From: Candidatus Kapaibacterium sp.
GTDB taxonomy: Bacteria > Bacteroidota > Ignavibacteria > Kapaibacteriales > UBA4661
Length of the DNA: 42,589 nucleotides
Reading direction: 5' to 3'
Assembly: GCA_004292595.1 (NCBI GenBank)
Contig: RDXM01000102.1
Location: 1-42,589, forward strand
This document shows, one piece after another, positions 2,726-28,244 of the stretch. The position numbers and the translations under genes were made by a program. Each line of letters opens with the position of its first letter. Positions within the stretch are counted from its first letter, which is position 1. The notes below the pieces were generated by a model. It saw only the letters and a program-made list of their open reading frames with translations. It was not told where the DNA came from and made no database searches.

Positions 2726-4171
2726 TTATACAAACGCCACCAAAGCAGTATTGATGCGCTTCATGGACTCTTCTTTGCCAAGAATTTCCATCGTATGCAC
2801 CATGCTCGCACCCACCGCGCGACCCGTAATCATCAGGCGAAGTGTATTCATCACCACGCCCATTTTTAAGCCGCTTTCTTTGGCAAAATCCTTTGTAAGC
2901 GCGGTCAGTGCTGCCTCGGTGAAGTCGCATTCCTGTAATTTCGCGGCAAGTGTGGCGAAGGGTGCGGCAAGTTCGGGTGTCCAAATTTTCGCTTTGAACT
3001 CCTCTTCGTAGCTCTGAAGCGGCTTGAACATATACTCAGCAAACGGCAATGCCTCGTGCAGCTTGTTGATGCGGTCGCGGACAAGCTCAATCACGCGAGC
3101 TAAGTATTCATCGCTTGTTTCGATGCCTTGTTCTTTTGCACGTGGTTGAAGCTCTGCCGCAAGGTCGCTTGGAGACTTGAGTTTGAGATATTCGCCATTC
3201 ATCCAATCCAATTTTTGCGTATCGAAAACTGCGCCCGCTTTGTTCACTTTTTCCAGCGTGAAGGATTCGATAAGTTCTTGCATGGAAAAGATTTCGCGTG
3301 TCGCACTGGGATTCCATCCCAAGAGCGCGACGAAATTCACCAATGCCTCTTTGAAATAGCCTTTGTCGCGGTAATCTTCAACCGCAACATCGCCCTGACG
3401 CTTACTGAGCTTGGTTTTATCAGGGTTTAAGAGCAAAGGCAGGTGCGCAAATTTTGGACGCTCCCAGCCGAGTGCGTCGTAGAGCAAAGCGTGTTTCGGC
3501 GTGGAAGGAAGCCACTCTTCACCGCGAATAACGTGCGTAATGCCCATCAAATGGTCATCCACGATATTGGCAAGGTGATAGGTCGGGAAATCATCGGACT
3601 TGAGCAAAATTTGGTCATCCACATCTCGCGCCGGAACAGTAATCGTGCCGCGCACAAGGTCATCAAAACGAATTTCGCCCGCAAGCGGAACTTTCATGCG
3701 AATCACACGCGGTGCATTTTCCGCTAGAAGCCGCTTGGTTTCTGCTTCGCCGAGCGTGTACTGATTGCGCATTGTGGTGCGGTCGTATCGCCAAGCAATA
3801 CCCGCATCCTGCATTCGCTTGCGCATTGCGTCTAATTCTTCCGCCGTATCGAAGGCGTAGTAGGCTGCATCGCGCTCCAGTAGGTCGCTGGCGTATGTGC
3901 GGTACAAATCAAACCGCTCGGATTGAATGTATGGACCACACGCGCCGCCTTGCTCCGGACCTTCATCGAACTCAATTCCCGCCCAACGCAAGGTATGCGC
4001 CAGAGCGTCTGCTGCGCCCTCCACGAGCCGTGTGCGGTCGGTGTCTTCAATCCGCAAAATACACACACCGCCATGACGCTTGGCAAAAAGGTAATTGTAC
4101 AAGGCAGTGCGCAAGCCGCCGACGTGAAGATAACCAGTGGGAGAAGGCGCGAAACGAACACGAACTGACAT
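2726..4171 (-). CDS. gltX: glutamyl-tRNA synthetase
   Basis: This class I aminoacyl-tRNA synthetase charges tRNA(Glu). The 481-aa length is standard. The HIGH-type motif is PSPTGYLHVGG (residues 9-19), the ATP-loop KMSKS equivalent is KLSKR (254-258), and the conserved RIEDTDRTR segment sits at 40-48. The C-terminal part after about residue 320 is the helical anticodon-binding domain. The ATG at 4169-4171 starts the protein directly at the catalytic fold, as in bacterial GltX. Whether it is discriminating or also charges tRNA(Gln) cannot be told: no glnS or gatCAB is seen here. It is flanked on both sides by palindromic elements, so it may be transcribed on its own. Confidence 0.97.
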   Translation of the reverse strand: MSVRVRFAPSPTGYLHVGGLRTALYNYLFAKRHGGVCILRIEDTDRTRLVEGAADALAHTLRWAGIEFDEGPEQGGACGPYIQSERFDLYRTYASDLLERDAAYYAFDTAEELDAMRKRMQDAGIAWRYDRTTMRNQYTLGEAETKRLLAENAPRVIRMKVPLAGEIRFDDLVRGTITVPARDVDDQILLKSDDFPTYHLANIVDDHLMGITHVIRGEEWLPSTPKHALLYDALGWERPKFAHLPLLLNPDKTKLSKRQGDVAVEDYRDKGYFKEALVNFVALLGWNPSATREIFSMQELIESFTLEKVNKAGAVFDTQKLDWMNGEYLKLKSPSDLAAELQPRAKEQGIETSDEYLARVIELVRDRINKLHEALPFAEYMFKPLQSYEEEFKAKIWTPELAAPFATLAAKLQECDFTEAALTALTKDFAKESGLKMGVVMNTLRLMITGRAVGASMVHTMEILGKEESMKRINTALVAFV

Positions 4172-4245: not shown

Positions 4246-4323
4246 AGTGGCACAGACATTCTTGTCTGTGAGTGCTGGTGCAGGGTGCAGGCGAGAAACA
4301 CAGACAAGAATGTCTGTGCCACT
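4246..4323. repeat. double-hairpin palindromic element, copy 2
   Basis: This is a 78-bp element with near-canonical arms. Each arm contains CACAGACATTCTTGTCTGTG or its complement, an 8-bp stem with a 4-base loop, and the two arms are inverted copies of each other around a spacer AGTGCTGGTGCAGG. It lies upstream of gltX. Confidence 0.9.
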
Positions 4324-5518: not shown

Positions 5519-5596
5519 AGTGGCACAGACGTTCTTGTCTGTGTTTCCCGCCTGAAGCCAGCACTAACTCTCACAGACAAGAATGTCTGTGCCACT
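5519..5596. repeat. double-hairpin palindromic element, copy 3 (inverted orientation)
   Basis: This is a 78-bp element in the gap between the permease and the transketolase gene. The asymmetric spacer (here CCAGCACTAACTCTCACAG side) shows that it lies in the opposite orientation to copies 1, 2 and 4. Confidence 0.9.
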
Positions 5597-7288: not shown

Positions 7289-9592
7289 CTACTCCTGCAC
7301 GGGCGTTTCCACAATTATCGTTACCGTGCGGCAGTAGAAGCGTCCTTCGGGAAGGTCAGTATCGTAGAGCAGCACCGTTTTTCCCAAGCCTCGTACTTCG
7401 GCGCGTTTTGCCAAGTCCAGTGCTGATGCGGTTTCGCGGGCGCGAGACTTTGACAAACGCATGGAATAATCAAGCGGGTTTGTGTAATCGGTATAGCCCG
7501 AAATGCGCACGGTTGCTTGCGGAGCGATTTGGGTTTTGATATAACTCGCAATGCGATTTTGTGCTTGCGTGAGGCTTGCTTTGTCGAAATCGAATAAAAT
7601 CAAGCTGTATCGGTCTATTTCCTTGTCTTTAATGCGCTCGCGGCGTTTGCGCTGAATCGTGATTTGCTCCACTGGCGCAGAGCCATTGTGCTGCAAGCGA
7701 TTTCCTTCGGTGTCGGTCAGAGAGAGTGTAAAATCAAGCGGCGTGGGCGCACGCGGTATATTTCCTTGGCTTTCGGCAATATTCCAATCCAGCATTTTCG
7801 GCAGCGAGCCTGTTCCGCGAAACTCCTTGAGCAGCTGTCCGCTTTGCGAAACGCTAATTGTCCAGTCTTTCACTTCGCCTTGCGGCAAGGTTACACGCGG
7901 TCGGAAGCGGATAATTGGCGGCGATACCGTGCGCACGGTGTCCATTGTTTTTACGGGTTCGAGAATTTCCCACGTGTCGCTGGCGCATTCCACACGACGA
8001 TTTTCCTGCTGCACTTCGGCGGTGTACAGCCCCGTGTTGGAAACGGTCGCCATTTGCGGCAAGTTGCGGGTTTGAATGGGCAAGCGTGTGGAATCAATGC
8101 CCCAAACATTGCTCAAATAATCGCGCACTGCCTTTGCGCGACGGTACGAAAGCGCAGTGTTGGTGCGCTCTGCGGGCGTAATGTTGTCGTTGCAGCCTGT
8201 GAGCGTGAGCTTTGCTTTTGGATAAAGACGCATCCGTTTTCCGATGATATTCAAGGCTTGGTGATAGGTTTCCAGCATCTCGAAATTATGCAGCGTGTTT
8301 ACGTTGTACGCGCTTGTATCCCGCGTGGACAGACGTTCGTAGCGTTCGGGAATGTTGTCGCTGCCTTGCTCAAAAAAGACATACGGCAGAAGCGGACGCA
8401 AATTCACCGACAAAAATTCTTCAATGCGAAAGGTAACGTCGGGCAGTTCCCGTCCATCGCGCTCCACGCCTACTGCCGTGATGTTTGCGGTGAGTTCGTT
8501 GCCGCGCTTCATTGTGCCGTTGTCGCGGTCTGTTTTGACGATTTCTGTTTTCGTTGTTTCCGTGCGTGTTGGTCTCTCTGGCGGGCGCGTGATGTTTTGT
8601 GACGGCGGTTCTTGATTTTGTGCGGTCGGCGTGGGTGGTTGTTCTTCGGAAGAGGACGAATCCAGCACTTTTCGTTCGGGCGCGAATTTGAGCGCAATGC
8701 CAGCACGGATTTGATGCACTGTCCAGTAATCACGCGGATTTGCCCATGCCGAACCCTGCACAATCGGCGTAATCGGATAGGAATAAAACACTTCTGGCGT
8801 GATATAGACCGTGCGCTTTGCATTCAAGGGAATTTCCCACGAAAGCCCCGCTATGACTGAAACAGAGTATGGCGTAGAGCCTGGAATTTCGCCGCTTTGC
8901 TGATTGCGCAATTTGTTTTGTGTGTCGAGAAAAACAGCCCTGTCGGGCGAGAGTATGCGCTCTTCCATCGCAAAACTACGCTGAATTGCATAACCGACGT
9001 GTCCGCCCAGCATAATTGCCAAGCCGTCGTCGCTTTTGCTAAGTCCCGTAAAGGGCTTAATCGTCAGAAATGGCTCAAAACCGATGTTTCCAAGATTGGC
9101 AGCGATAGTATGCGCAACGTTGGCTGTCTGCGGCGAACCGTCGGGATTCACATTCCCAAACAACACAGTGGAATCAAGCGACTCCGACCACGACGGAACG
9201 CCTCCAAGCCGCACGTAGCCTAAGCGCAAGGACAATCCAACGACATTGCCAAGCGGAATATCGTAGAGCAGTCCTGCGGCGAAGTTATTGGCAATCGCGT
9301 CGCGGAAATTTTGGCAACAACTCGGCACACCCGGTAATTCCTTGAAGCTCGCATAGTGCGTGGTGTAGGCGTATTGTCCCCACACGCCGAAGCGTGTGCG
9401 CGGCGTGGAATCGAGCTTCTGTGCGTGTGCGGAAGTGCCGATGAACAGGAGCATTACCAGCAATAGTGGCACAGACATTCTTGTCTGTGAGTGTTGGTGC
9501 GCTTTGTGGGGATTCACAGACAAGAATGTCTGTGCCACTGGGGAACTCAGACTGTGTCTTTGTAGAAAATATTTTCGTAGTACATTTTTCAT
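7289..9592 (-). CDS. outer-membrane barrel protein with two OmpA-like domains
   Basis: The 767-aa protein has a signal peptide whose hydrophobic core is LLLVMLLFIGTSAHA, with cleavage expected after residue 57. Residues 60-305 look like an outer-membrane beta-barrel. A Pro/Ser/Thr-rich linker follows (310-365). Next comes a first OmpA-like domain (about 400-540, FFEQGSDNIP, then RTNTALSYRRAKAVRDYL), an Ig-like stretch (565-640), and a second OmpA-like domain (660-767, LILFDFDKASL, GYTDYTNPLDYSMRLSKSRA). OmpA-like domains bind peptidoglycan, so it probably links outer membrane and wall. Its ATG overlaps the stop of the upstream T9SS-substrate gene as ATGA, so the two are coupled. Oddly, residues 19-43 are encoded by a palindromic repeat element, giving a 40-residue n-region. 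An internal start at Met39 is the alternative. Confidence 0.85.
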   Translation of the reverse strand: MKNVLRKYFLQRHSLSSPVAQTFLSVNPHKAHQHSQTRMSVPLLLVMLLFIGTSAHAQKLDSTPRTRFGVWGQYAYTTHYASFKELPGVPSCCQNFRDAIANNFAAGLLYDIPLGNVVGLSLRLGYVRLGGVPSWSESLDSTVLFGNVNPDGSPQTANVAHTIAANLGNIGFEPFLTIKPFTGLSKSDDGLAIMLGGHVGYAIQRSFAMEERILSPDRAVFLDTQNKLRNQQSGEIPGSTPYSVSVIAGLSWEIPLNAKRTVYITPEVFYSYPITPIVQGSAWANPRDYWTVHQIRAGIALKFAPERKVLDSSSSEEQPPTPTAQNQEPPSQNITRPPERPTRTETTKTEIVKTDRDNGTMKRGNELTANITAVGVERDGRELPDVTFRIEEFLSVNLRPLLPYVFFEQGSDNIPERYERLSTRDTSAYNVNTLHNFEMLETYHQALNIIGKRMRLYPKAKLTLTGCNDNITPAERTNTALSYRRAKAVRDYLSNVWGIDSTRLPIQTRNLPQMATVSNTGLYTAEVQQENRRVECASDTWEILEPVKTMDTVRTVSPPIIRFRPRVTLPQGEVKDWTISVSQSGQLLKEFRGTGSLPKMLDWNIAESQGNIPRAPTPLDFTLSLTDTEGNRLQHNGSAPVEQITIQRKRRERIKDKEIDRYSLILFDFDKASLTQAQNRIASYIKTQIAPQATVRISGYTDYTNPLDYSMRLSKSRARETASALDLAKRAEVRGLGKTVLLYDTDLPEGRFYCRTVTIIVETPVQE
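9465..9539. repeat. double-hairpin palindromic element, copy 4, inside a coding region
   Basis: This 75-bp element with intact arms lies within the 5' end of the OmpA-family gene. Its length is 25 codons and it has no stop in that frame. It separates the charged N-terminus of the signal peptide from the hydrophobic core. Confidence 0.9.
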
Positions 9593-12500
9593 CGAATTAC
9601 CTCCAAGCGGCGTGTGATGCGCTCTGTGGGAGTTTGTAAAATCATAAAATACAGCCCTGATGGGAGCGACGCTGCGTCTGCGGTGAGCGAATACGTGCCT
9701 GCCTCCATTTCCGCACCCAACAGCTGCTTCACGGCTTGTCCCATCGTGTTGTAGAGCGTGAGCGTGGTGTAGCCGCGTTCCATGAGCGAAAGGTCAATCG
9801 TGGAAATATCGGTAACGGGATTGGGTTTTGCCGAAGCAAGTGCTGTTGCGGTGGTGGCGATTTGCACAAGGCGCGTTCCACCCGCCAAGCAAATACGGCT
9901 CGCAGAAGTTCGCGCCGATGCGGTGTCGAGGTTCAAACAAATGCCGCCCGATGCTGGATTGTCGAGAAATACTTGCGTTGCGGTGGTATTGCCGAGCGTG
10001 ATGCGAAAGGGGATTCGCGCAAGAACGCTATCGGCGGGAAGGGGATTCGGCAAGGGCAAGCGCAAAGGAATAATGCGGTTTCCAGCAGCATCCGCACTGC
10101 CTTTGTCGGTACCAAGTGGATACATGATGGTTCGATTAAAGCGCAAACTCGCGCTAAATTCCCTGATGCCCGCCTCGCGCAAAAAGCGCACATTTTCTAA
10201 GCGCAACGGCAAAAGCACGGTGTCGCCGATGCCACCAGAAACCGATTCCAAGCGCAGACGTGCCGTTGCGGTCAAGGTTTCGGCAAATGCGCTCACGGAC
10301 GAGGTTTTGGAGCAAGTGAAACCAAAATCGCGCAGAAGCGGTGTAAGCTGCGTTGTTAAGTAGCTGCGTCCGCACGGCGAGCCTGCATAGCGCATCGTTA
10401 CTTGTGCCATCGCGCCCGGCATGGTTGGATTAGGCGAAATACTTTCCACCGAAAACACGCTGTCCTGCCCGAAACGGAGCGGCACATTCCACTGAATGGG
10501 CAGATTGCCTGTGTTGCGCAGGGTGAGCGTTTTGGTAACGGGCGTGTTGGGCGGAACAGAGCCGAAGGTCGTAAATATCGGCTCTACGGCGTTTATCCAT
10601 TCAAAATCGCGGACGTTTTTTATGCCCGAAAGCGTTGTGCTGGTCGAGCCAGCAGCATCGCGGTTGATGGCATTGGAAAGGTAGCGGAAGGTCTGATTTG
10701 CCGCGCCCAGCACCATTGGCTGAAAGCGCACCGTGAGCGTGGTATCGCGCCCGCCCGCAATGCGAATGGGCAGCGACGACGCGCTACTCGCCGCATCAAT
10801 ACTGATGCTTGAGGCATTGCCGCTTTGAAGAGATTGAATGCTGGTGATAATCAAATCCTGACCGCCTGTGTTTTGCACGATGACCGACGAGATAGCACTG
10901 ACTTCGCAACTAAGCGGCGTAAACACACGATTCTCGGTAACAGCAATGCGCGGAGGCAAGATAGTTGCTTGCACAGAAAATGCTTGCACACGCCCACAGG
11001 CATCGGTGAATGCGCCCATGCTGCTTGCGTCGGTCGCGCTGCCGAGAAAGTTCACCGTTACAACCGATGTGCCGCCAACAGGCGTTACCGGCGGCGTAAT
11101 ATCCCGAATCGTGAATGCACCGCCGAGCGTGAAGCGTCCGCCCCAGGTGAGCGGCGTTGTGCCGAGATTGCGAATGGTCAAAGTGTCGGTCGCGCCGATG
11201 TTGGGGAAAATGTTCACAAAGCGAAGATTGGTGCGGGAGAGAGCAAATCCGACGGAATCTTTGCCGCCTTGCAGCACGACGTTGAAGGTCGGCGAATCGT
11301 CGGCATTAGAAATAAAGCGCAGTGTGTCGGTGGATGCGCCCGTGCGGTTCGGACGGTAGCGGACTTGGAGCGTTTGCGGCTGCCCCGAGCGCACCGAGAG
11401 CGGCACTGCGGGCTGGGAAACAAGCGAAAACGGACTGCTTGCGCCGCCCAAGAGCGTTATTTGGCTAATTATCAAATCTTGTCCATCGCTGCTGGTGTTG
11501 CGCACGGTGAAGCTGACGGTAGAATCATTCGCGCAGGTAAGGGTGCTAAAATTGATAGGACTCGCAACGCCAATGCCCGGACGCGGTTTGTCAATGTTAA
11601 TCCGCATGGTTACTGGGGTTTGGCGCGAGCAGTCGTCCACCATATTCCACACCGCGCTGAACTGCCCCGCCACGGACGTATTTGCAAAGCGCACCGTTAC
11701 TTGCGAAGTGCCACCTGCGGGCGTTGGGTTTGGCGTGATGCTTTCCACCACGTAGCCATTTGCGAGCGTTGCCGGAAGCAGCCAGGCTTTTGCGATTGTT
11801 CCCGTATTTGTGATAGTCAGTGTCCGCGTGAGTGCTGGTGCGCCGCGCGTAATTGTTCCAAAATCAAGGTCTTGCGCCGAAACGCTGAGATTGACCGAAT
11901 CTTTTAATGCCGTTACTGTTACGGTCGTGATGCCCGTTTGCGCATTAGAAAACAAGGTCAGACGCGCCGTGCGGTCGTTGGGCATGGAAATACGCGGTGT
12001 GTAGCGGACGATAATATCACGGCTTTGGTTGAATGGCACAAGCAACGGCGTGGACTCGGAGAGCATCGTGGGGCTGATAATTTGGTAATCTGGCAGGGTA
12101 AAACTCGCGCCCGTAACCCGCAGGGTTACTTGTCCCGAGTTATAGACGTTCAACGTGGTATCTTTGTAGGGCGCGTCGGTATTGGCACACGCAAAATCGC
12201 CGAAATCAATAGGGCGCGTGGAAATACCCGACGGCGTAACGGTGATGTTTGGCGGGTTTTGTGCGGTGCGAGCTTCGAGCGTAAAAAGAGGACCGACGAC
12301 GTTACAAATTCTATCAATAGGACTTGTAGAATAGGTGAGATATTGCCCTGCCATCGCACCCAGAAAGCGCACCGTTACAAATGAAGTATCGCCCGGCTGG
12401 AGAACGACGCGATAATTCGTCGTGTTTCCTGGTTCGACGACAGGTGCTGGGCGTATGCTCGTAATGCGAAAGCTGCCGATATCGACAGGAATTTGCCAAT

Positions 12501-13206
12501 CCATCGGAACTGTTCCATTATTGCGCACAAACGGCAAGGTAATATCAGCAGTAGCGTTGGGCGCAAGCACACCGAAGTCGTAGCCGCTTGAGAGAAGCTG
12601 AAAAGAACGCCGCTCGCGTCTGGTGATAATCGGAAAATCATTGATAATCGGTACGCCAATACTATCCACCGAATACACCCGCAATGTCGCACTACTGCTT
12701 GTTCCGAGATTGGGAGTCGTAAAGCTGGCAATAATCAAGGTGCGCCGCCCCGCAATCACGCCAACAGGCGAGGTGGGCGTGAGGACGCGAAACGTCGCGG
12801 CGGGTGGTGCATTCAAAATGCGCACACTATCGACGCGCCCGCTAATAGCACGCCGTCCATCGGGCGTCTGAGGTGTAATCGGCACATCTACTTCAAGGGT
12901 GGTTTCAACCGAATCCAGCACAGGTGAATCGCAGATTTGCGTACGGAAATTCCAGACTGCTATGCGGGTGGATGCTGCCTCAGATTGCTGCCCTTTCACC
13001 GAGCCATTTGGAGAGGCGTTTAGCGAAGTATTTGCTCCTAAACGCAAGAGTTGATGCGGCGAGCGAGGCGATGGCGCGGGTTCAGAGTAGATGTTCTGCG
13101 CGGTAAGGAATGCGGGCATTCCAACAGCAACGATGCAGAACAAACAAAGAGCGGCATACAAGGAATGATGCCGCCGTGAAGGTATTGTTGAGGGAACAAT
13201 CTTCAT
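9589..13206 (-). CDS. T9SS-secreted Ig-like repeat protein (choice-of-anchor D/ASH-like) with cohesin-like domain
   Basis: This 1205-aa secreted protein has a signal peptide (hydrophobic core about residues 17-35, cleavage after LTA). Most of the length is tandem Ig-like modules alternating between a form with FG...TLxIxNxGTxPxxW and VTVRF and a form starting at a conserved Cys (CANTD, CANDS, CEVS) with VxNTGGQDLIIxS. About four pairs are visible. Residues about 980-1105 resemble a cohesin-like domain (GDTVLLPLRLENV...FSASLRF). The last 85 residues (KPNPVTDISTIDLSL... to RRLEVIR) form a type A T9SS sorting domain, predicting export to the surface. No enzyme motif is seen; adhesion or scaffold is inference. 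The 3' end overlaps the OmpA-family start by four bases, suggesting the two act at the same surface. Confidence 0.88.
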   Translation of the reverse strand: MKIVPSTIPSRRHHSLYAALCLFCIVAVGMPAFLTAQNIYSEPAPSPRSPHQLLRLGANTSLNASPNGSVKGQQSEAASTRIAVWNFRTQICDSPVLDSVETTLEVDVPITPQTPDGRRAISGRVDSVRILNAPPAATFRVLTPTSPVGVIAGRRTLIIASFTTPNLGTSSSATLRVYSVDSIGVPIINDFPIITRRERRSFQLLSSGYDFGVLAPNATADITLPFVRNNGTVPMDWQIPVDIGSFRITSIRPAPVVEPGNTTNYRVVLQPGDTSFVTVRFLGAMAGQYLTYSTSPIDRICNVVGPLFTLEARTAQNPPNITVTPSGISTRPIDFGDFACANTDAPYKDTTLNVYNSGQVTLRVTGASFTLPDYQIISPTMLSESTPLLVPFNQSRDIIVRYTPRISMPNDRTARLTLFSNAQTGITTVTVTALKDSVNLSVSAQDLDFGTITRGAPALTRTLTITNTGTIAKAWLLPATLANGYVVESITPNPTPAGGTSQVTVRFANTSVAGQFSAVWNMVDDCSRQTPVTMRINIDKPRPGIGVASPINFSTLTCANDSTVSFTVRNTSSDGQDLIISQITLLGGASSPFSLVSQPAVPLSVRSGQPQTLQVRYRPNRTGASTDTLRFISNADDSPTFNVVLQGGKDSVGFALSRTNLRFVNIFPNIGATDTLTIRNLGTTPLTWGGRFTLGGAFTIRDITPPVTPVGGTSVVTVNFLGSATDASSMGAFTDACGRVQAFSVQATILPPRIAVTENRVFTPLSCEVSAISSVIVQNTGGQDLIITSIQSLQSGNASSISIDAASSASSLPIRIAGGRDTTLTVRFQPMVLGAANQTFRYLSNAINRDAAGSTSTTLSGIKNVRDFEWINAVEPIFTTFGSVPPNTPVTKTLTLRNTGNLPIQWNVPLRFGQDSVFSVESISPNPTMPGAMAQVTMRYAGSPCGRSYLTTQLTPLLRDFGFTCSKTSSVSAFAETLTATARLRLESVSGGIGDTVLLPLRLENVRFLREAGIREFSASLRFNRTIMYPLGTDKGSADAAGNRIIPLRLPLPNPLPADSVLARIPFRITLGNTTATQVFLDNPASGGICLNLDTASARTSASRICLAGGTRLVQIATTATALASAKPNPVTDISTIDLSLMERGYTTLTLYNTMGQAVKQLLGAEMEAGTYSLTADAASLPSGLYFMILQTPTERITRRLEVIR

Positions 13207-14771: not shown

Positions 14772-14797
14772 AGCGCAGACAAGAGTGTCTGCGCTAC
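14772..14797. repeat. single-arm variant of the palindromic element family
   Basis: This is a single hairpin AGCGCAGACA / TGTCTGCGCT around a 4-base loop, upstream of gmd. It keeps the GCAGACA...TGTCTGC core of the double-hairpin family but differs at paired positions on both sides of the stem. Confidence 0.55.
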
Positions 14798-26562: not shown

Positions 26563-26638
26563 AGTGGCACAGACATTCTTGTCTGTGAATATGCTCGAAT
26601 GCTCATCAAAACTCACAGACAAGAAGTCTCAAGCCACT
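26563..26638. repeat. double-hairpin palindromic element, copy 5 (right arm decayed)
   Basis: The left arm is canonical. The right arm reads CACAGACAAGAAGTCTCAAGCCACT, so its hairpin is broken by changes. It lies between glyS and the Wzz-type gene. Confidence 0.8.
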
Positions 26639-28166: not shown

Positions 28167-28244
28167 AGTGGCACAGACATTCTTGTCTGTGCTTCCCACC
28201 TAAAACCTGCACCAACACTCACAGACAAGAATGTCTGTGCCACT
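28167..28244. repeat. double-hairpin palindromic element, copy 6 (inverted orientation)
   Basis: A 78-bp element with canonical arms. Its spacer reads in the same direction as copy 3, opposite to copies 1, 2 and 4. It lies between the giant adhesin-like gene and glyS. Confidence 0.9.

Follow-up and report, generated by a model that had tools for sequence, protein, structure and literature searches.

A REPIN read in frame within the putative signal peptide of an OmpA-family protein of Candidatus Kapaibacterium

How does a mobile palindrome come to lie between the start codon and the hydrophobic core of a secretion signal, and is it translated there? This question is raised by a 42,589-nt stretch of DNA from Candidatus Kapaibacterium sp. 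(contig RDXM01000102.1 of assembly GCA_004292595.1; hereafter the window), which, as contig C60, belongs to a draft genome of 4.6 Mb in 199 contigs, referred to as G000. A 75-nt element at positions 9465-9539 lies inside a gene of 767 codons on the minus strand (7289-9592), for which orthologues were found in all eight genomes of the genus (G000 to G007). An earlier note on the window had described the segment as an in-frame copy of a dispersed repeat in a gene of the OmpA family. Both statements were borne out: the gene product matches PF00691 (E = 2e-13), and the element forms codons 19-43, adding 25 codons without a stop and keeping the frame. We consider it highly probable that a doublet of repetitive extragenic palindromic sequences (REPs) forming a hairpin (REPIN), mobilised by a REP-associated tyrosine transposase (RAYT), was inserted at a site that would accept nearly any sequence in frame and gave rise to a long n-region.

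The element consists of two inverted, GTGG-headed REPs around a variable spacer and reads A-GTGG...CCAC-T as a whole. One arm (GTGGCACAGACATTCTTGTCTGTG, 9466-9489, plus strand) matches the family pattern without a mismatch, and the other (9515-9538, minus strand) is inverted and carries the reverse complement of GTGGCACAGACATTCTTGTCTGTG; the head GTGG is followed by the palindrome CACAGACA-TTCT-TGTCTGTG. In the available sections of two studies, REPINs and RAYTs are described by a GT(A/G)G head, a palindrome, inverted doublets, high copy number and a RAYT gene flanked by REPs (PMC2817692, PMC3116915). The head of the window copy conforms to this description. Allowing up to 3 mismatches, the REP core was found 298 times in forward and 291 times in reverse orientation in G000, while the reversed pattern, used as a control, was found in neither; the family is thus of high copy number. 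Among 81 REP clusters in the stretches fetched from this genome (including four from loci picked for other reasons, two at L143 and one each at L152 and L156), 52 were inverted doublets, and 36 of these 52 shared a single span, 78 nt when the flanking A and T are counted; the window copy is 3 nt shorter than this commonest form. The clusters are mostly extragenic, and a RAYT flanked by inverted REPs is present on contig C139, within recG (see below). Its sequence identifies the 75-bp segment as a GTAG-type REPIN whose heads read GTGG here, and as such a short non-autonomous element.

The surroundings of the element resemble the parts of a signal peptide. Residues 1-18 (9539-9592, minus strand) form a basic start ahead of it, and a hydrophobic core with a cleavage region follows in residues 44-57 (9422-9463, minus strand), where a cut at AHA/QK is expected after residue 57; the A-Q-K junction is common to the eight genus orthologues. 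Six K or R and no D or E precede the core. The earlier note had placed the core at residues 43-57; a hydrophobic core is indeed there, and the most hydrophobic 10-residue window (hydropathy 3.20) begins exactly where the element ends, at residue 43. That a mobile palindrome has become part of a secretion signal, as the earlier note proposed, is supported. The gene upstream (9589-13206, minus strand), which encodes Ig-like/HYDIN domains and a C-terminal sorting domain, overlaps the OmpA-family gene by ATGA.

Comparison across the genus agreed with the prediction that relatives lacking the element would have signal peptides of normal length: in the REP-free orthologues of G002, G004 and G003, only 5, 10 and 17 residues precede the core. 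The nearest relative, G005, carries the same element as the window gene. Altogether, n-region REPs were present in five of the eight orthologues (G000, G005, G001, G006 and G007), and rarity of a long n-region, as expected in the earlier note, is therefore not supported within this genus. The insertions differ in kind. REPs headed by GTGG are translated as VAQTFLSV in G000 and G005, while the other three carriers have GTAG heads and the second reading phase, STDILVC; in G001 and G006 a complete REPIN is translated in this phase as STDILVC...TDKNV. In G007 the leader extends over 495 nt (165 codons) from Met1 to the core and contains five REPs with internal duplications, but not one stop in frame, against 6, 13, 2, 6 and 5 stops in the other five frames; the chance of such an absence is about 0.2% by a rough Poisson estimate (mean 6.4). 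In all carriers, the element starts 37-54 nt past the first base of the start codon. The differences in phase and head make at least two insertions in this gene likely.

Presence of the element went together with REP richness of the genome. At up to 1 mismatch, REP matches numbered 545 in G000, 538 in G005, 234 in G007, 162 in G001 and 82 in G006, against 2 in G002 and none in G003 and G004; the five REP-rich genomes are exactly the five carriers, and the three REP-poor ones are without the element. Across the order, REP matches were found in 10 of 123 genomes, with counts of 62, 12, 5 and 1 outside the genus. The genome with 62 matches to the same REP core (G085) belongs to another family of the order, and a search of it with the RAYT of the window genome gave no match.

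Whether the element is translated depends on the start codon. The earlier note had left two options, a very long n-region or a start at the internal Met39 (9476-9478, minus strand), which lies within the second REP in reading direction; it had further pointed to a coupling by ATGA with the upstream gene. This overlap is real (9589-9592, minus strand), and it is accompanied by a Shine-Dalgarno sequence, GGAGG, at 9600-9604 (minus strand). The junction is identical in all eight genomes, where the upstream gene ends in EVIR-stop, the overlap is ATGA and GGAGG occupies the same place. Met1 is thus the conserved start, and since it also serves the three genomes whose gene is free of REPs, the start is independent of the insertion. 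Pairing energies were predicted against a general anti-Shine-Dalgarno sequence: Met1 reached -10.7 kcal/mol in the window gene and -10.5 to -15.0 kcal/mol in the other genus orthologues; the background averaged -2.2 kcal/mol, its first percentile lying at -9.2 kcal/mol. For Met39 the value was +0.2 kcal/mol, i.e. no pairing, and a start there would strip the n-region of all K and R. The long n-region is therefore the favoured option, and an internal start at Met39 was judged unlikely on account of Shine-Dalgarno strength, phase in the relatives and conservation of the junction.

Related genes of the same genome have REPs at the same kind of place. We compared 30 N-termini of G000, namely the window gene and 29 matching genes with a readable N-terminus, four of which match its N-terminal domain only (the gene on C135 is cut by a contig end, and the weak matches C188:10030, C189:1795 and C28:201 were left out). 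REP-derived n-regions were seen in five of the 30, the window gene included. One paralogue, C88:8527, has a REP n-region and GGAGG, shows a similar ATGA overlap as judged by eye, and stays open for at least 812 codons. Apart from the window gene, it is also the only place in G000 where GGAGG and ATG are followed after 46 to 76 bases by a REP; with a distance of 15 to 45 bases there was no match in this genome. Over the eight genus genomes, the two patterns together found 12 places, 5 of them in OmpA-type genes. The other seven (in G005, G006 C115, G007 C72 and G007 C114:29932) were discarded as genes, their frames ending within 2-68 codons. The recurrence of REPs in orthologues and related genes indicates that n-regions of this family take them up repeatedly, and the site looks like a tolerated landing place for mobile DNA of a known kind.

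A candidate for the mobilising enzyme was found in an unexpected location. The only match in G000 to a REP-associated transposase query lies inside the recG open reading frame (G000:C139:5982-8828), which comprises 1060 open codons with helicase domains on both sides and inverted REPs flanking the RAYT on either side. The same arrangement is present in G006 (C10; 997 codons) and in G007, there split over contigs C20 and C58, which share an end. At the RAYT site, G001-G004 have a short loop of recG, and neither G005 nor G001, both rich in REPs, gave a match to the RAYT of the window genome. The loop of G005 (C78) holds a different palindromic repeat, again in frame, from which it looks insertion-tolerant; the idea that this insert is a deleted REPIN was rejected by eye. 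With the curated model for REP-associated tyrosine transposases, NF047646 (cut-off 80 bits), the RAYTs scored 96.5 (G007), 80.4 (G006) and 79.8 (G000, just below the cut-off). The HUH motif (HVH, residues 55-57) and Tyr117 are invariant in six aligned copies, and weak matches were obtained to solved IS200-type transposases (E = 1e-4) and to TnpArep 4er8 (E = 0.011). Between species, dN (nonsynonymous divergence) is about 0.4 while dS (synonymous divergence) is near-saturated or saturated, which indicates constraint on the transposase protein. The RAYT in recG is likely the mobiliser of the REPINs. A Y1-type transposase on C19 was set aside for this role, being a fragment with 2 stops.

We also followed the recG loop through the 123 genomes of the order, by a search in which REP-sized insertions would not show. 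The match ran through the loop in 108 and was broken in four (G000, G005, G006 and G007); five gave pieces only and six were weak. At G008:C296 and G071:C114 the recG match breaks off in this loop (query residues 457 and 458), within 3 bases of where the contig ends, perhaps because repeats broke the assembly there. Other Y1-type transposases were seen near methylase-like genes. In G073 one lies in a long frame between parts of an Eco57I/MmeI-type methylase and is followed within the methylase frame (C8) by long arrays, again in frame, in which the peptide NYTLQGVG and its variants recur. G091 has one ahead of an Eco57I domain, on a contig that ends about 60 residues before the transposase; in G012 one follows a DUF1156 domain, with no Pfam match behind it, and in G001 an Eco57I/MmeI-type gene is split and its first half ends with the transposase. 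Repeated peptides surround the transposases in the long frames of all four genomes.

The following course of events would account for the window gene. A RAYT transposase would have mobilised a REPIN copy, which entered the n-region before G000 and G005 diverged. Translation would begin at Met1 at the operon junction and run straight through the element, yielding a pre-protein in which some 42 residues precede a hydrophobic core of the ordinary kind and an AHA/QK cleavage site, and the extra residues would be cut off together with the signal peptide. Secretion presumably still works, and the effect may well be near-neutral. Such an insertion would be tolerated because an n-region demands little of its sequence, and because the element is short, usually has a length divisible by 3 and can be read without stops in several frames.

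A number of observations weigh against this account, and we set them out here with the rival explanations. The assignment of a signal peptide draws on hydropathy, the A-Q-K junction and homology. Support from the paralogues is uneven: in C88:1833, which has a REP n-region, a later ATG pairs like the first (-6.5 versus -6.1 kcal/mol), C13:9865 and C139:10830 contain one diverged REP match each, and the start of the latter lacks Shine-Dalgarno pairing (+1.3 kcal/mol). Translated REPs are scarce in the genome at large. In a sample from the first 100 of 589 REP sites in contig order (six sites on C60 being covered by the window; the four clusters from loci picked for other reasons excluded), only 2 of 77 clusters lay in a translated part, judged by eye and not by a gene caller, and 1 of 70 without the window; C1:56742, C30:69, C45:200, C45:252, C55:47 and C57:65 were left unclassified. 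A genome-wide wave of in-frame insertions was rejected on this count. Both translated clusters are OmpA-type n-regions, one being the window's own, and purging elsewhere combined with tolerance in such n-regions is the simplest account. Internal codons pair moderately in two relatives, namely GTG codons 95 and 97 of G007 (-9.3 kcal/mol) and ATG40 of G001, behind the element (-6.7 kcal/mol), so shorter products are possible there. This pairing, the in-frame ATG in the second REP just ahead of the core, which recurs in the two C88 paralogues, and the suggestion in the main text of a 2013 survey that many NH2-terminal REPs may be untranslated (PMC3733652) would fit an element that in fact belongs to the 5' untranslated region, with a start at Met39 or another internal codon and residues 1-38 never made. 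We hold this to be quite improbable: Met1, GGAGG and ATGA are kept in element-free genomes too, Met39 lacks both pairing and a basic residue before the core, G001 and G006 read their element in a phase without ATG, and the 165 codons of G007 are free of stops from Met1 onwards. That the locus is an assembly artefact or a dead gene is scarcely credible, although the assembly is fragmented and repeats are prone to misjoining, for G005 has the element at the same place in an intact frame of 763 residues (JAAFIV010000031.1), and purifying selection acts on the mature part (pN/pS about 0.16).

Divergence within the element does not point to the peptide as such. The copies of the element in G000 and G005 are separated by 1 synonymous and 4 nonsynonymous differences with one codon gapped, corresponding to proportions of synonymous (pS) and nonsynonymous (pN) differences of 0.06 and 0.07, compared with 0.41 and 0.06 in the mature part; as the alignment gap falls where the element ends on its 3' side, the differences counted for the hydrophobic part may be too many. 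Between G001 and G006 the values are 0.15 and 0.06 for the element, 0.40 and 0.06 for the mature part. Codon-level selection on the REP peptide is thus not in evidence; with synonymous divergence as low as nonsynonymous, it is by this measure the DNA or RNA of the element, not specifically its peptide, that is conserved. Any of three causes could account for this: protection by the reading frame, homogenisation among copies, or some role for the hairpin. In the last case, the REPIN would have been kept for an RNA hairpin that slows elongation or offers a site to an RNase or another protein, adjusting the amount of protein relative to the upstream gene. The predicted hairpin is very stable (-45.5 kcal/mol), and two intergenic REPINs close by were not kept intact in G005: nothing corresponds there to the one at 4247-4322, and the one at 5520-5595 is reduced to a degenerate single REP. 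We nevertheless regard a useful hairpin as unlikely, given that element-free relatives keep the same junction, that a location inside a reading frame itself hinders loss by frame-breaking deletion, and that homogenisation would likewise lower divergence. The related proposal of the earlier note, that the hairpins tune initiation, found no support: predicted unpairedness of positions -20 to +15 was 0.38 with the element and 0.37 without it, and occlusion of the start was rejected. A different history, to which we give appreciable weight while doubting it, is a single insertion early in the genus that was inherited, phase-shifted, rearranged and lost in some species. Carriers do not form a clade, as G001 and G006 group with the non-carriers G002 and G004 in both the OmpA and the RecG tree, and G007 groups with the non-carrier G003 in the former. 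Both trees are midpoint-rooted, G003 is on a long branch and one fork of the OmpA tree is open. On the OmpA tree one gain followed by two losses takes as many steps as three gains, but on the RecG tree, with G003 drawn outermost, one gain and one loss (in G002/G004) need 2 steps against three gains, and the similar starting point of the elements fits common descent as well. The differing phases and heads, the agreement of element presence with current REP richness and the separate REPs of additional paralogues favour repeated insertion.

The window contains seven REP clusters. Besides those already given, these are a REPIN at 28168-28243, single REPs at 2614-2637 and 26564-26587 (both plus strand) and a REP-like sequence at 14774-14797 (minus strand; up to 3 mismatches to the family pattern). 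In G005, a degenerate REP without counterpart in the window lies just behind the OmpA gene, at position 3962 in window orientation. The GTGG-headed 24-nt REP core, at 9466-9489 as in the family, contains no TAG, this stop being removed by GTGG in place of GTAG, and none of its three forward frames is closed. GTGG heads may favour intragenic copies. According to the main text of the 2013 survey, Opitutus terrae has GTGG heads in most of its GTAG-20 elements and the most intragenic GTAG repeats of any species (PMC3733652).

Palindromes within reading frames have precedents. The main text of the same survey (PMC3733652) describes GTAG/GTGG palindromes, often dimers coding for 20-30 residues, in open reading frames of several species, with intragenic copies often in repair genes and more at the NH2 than at the COOH terminus. 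Our case involves the same tagged palindromes, NH2 termini included, and differs in that the start ahead of the element has been kept across eight genomes. The terms "signal peptide" and "recG" are both absent from that main text, the supplementary lists being outside this scope. With the REPIN/RAYT systems, as far as the available parts of PMC3116915 and PMC2817692 describe them, the present one shares GT(A/G)G heads, inverted doublets, high copy number and a REP-flanked RAYT, but RAYTs are separate genes there, while here the RAYT is in frame in recG and a few REPINs are in signal peptides. The palindromic elements of Rickettsia likewise lie in frame in protein genes (PMC2229807, and via PMC3733652, both in part); they belong to another lineage and are likened by description, not by sequence. 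In Yersinia, the accessible account of RU-2 in YPO1552 concerns one putative exported protein (PMC2759123), whereas here the element lies between a conserved start and the core of an OmpA-family protein and REPs occur in orthologues and paralogues too. A few unexpectedly long transposases were discarded as gene fusions or annotation errors in PMC6006769, to judge from the part available, and the portion of PMC8049555 at hand adds nothing further on coding copies. Among titles and abstracts, with incomplete coverage of the literature, we found neither a RAYT within recG reported nor the repeated insertion of REPs into a single n-region; with supplements outside the scope too, this speaks weakly for the absence of such reports.

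Both REPs within genes and a signal peptide derived from a repeat have thus been published before; new are an unusually clear case for translation through the element and the recurrence of REPs in orthologues and paralogues. NH2-terminal REPs have been suspected of being misannotations, and with the upstream start kept in eight genomes, read-through is hard to avoid here. The five species with their three kinds of REP leader amount to a natural experiment on the length and oddity that an n-region may reach. More tentatively, and with considerable doubt, the sequences might be taken to describe a RAYT/REP system able to live in reading frames, with transposases inserted in frame in DNA-processing enzymes (RecG in three species, the Eco57I/MmeI-type methylase of G073, perhaps the methylase-like frames of G091, G012 and G001) and REPINs that repeatedly lengthen OmpA-family signal peptides, leaders of up to about 165 residues still exporting. 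The transposase insert would then resemble an intein-borne nuclease, with no splicing implied, and the n-regions would be an evolutionary landing pad. The RAYT in recG is more surprising than the original 75 bp: in frame, and with its active-site residues kept in three species, it raises the question whether a selfish gene can persist as a domain of a host enzyme.

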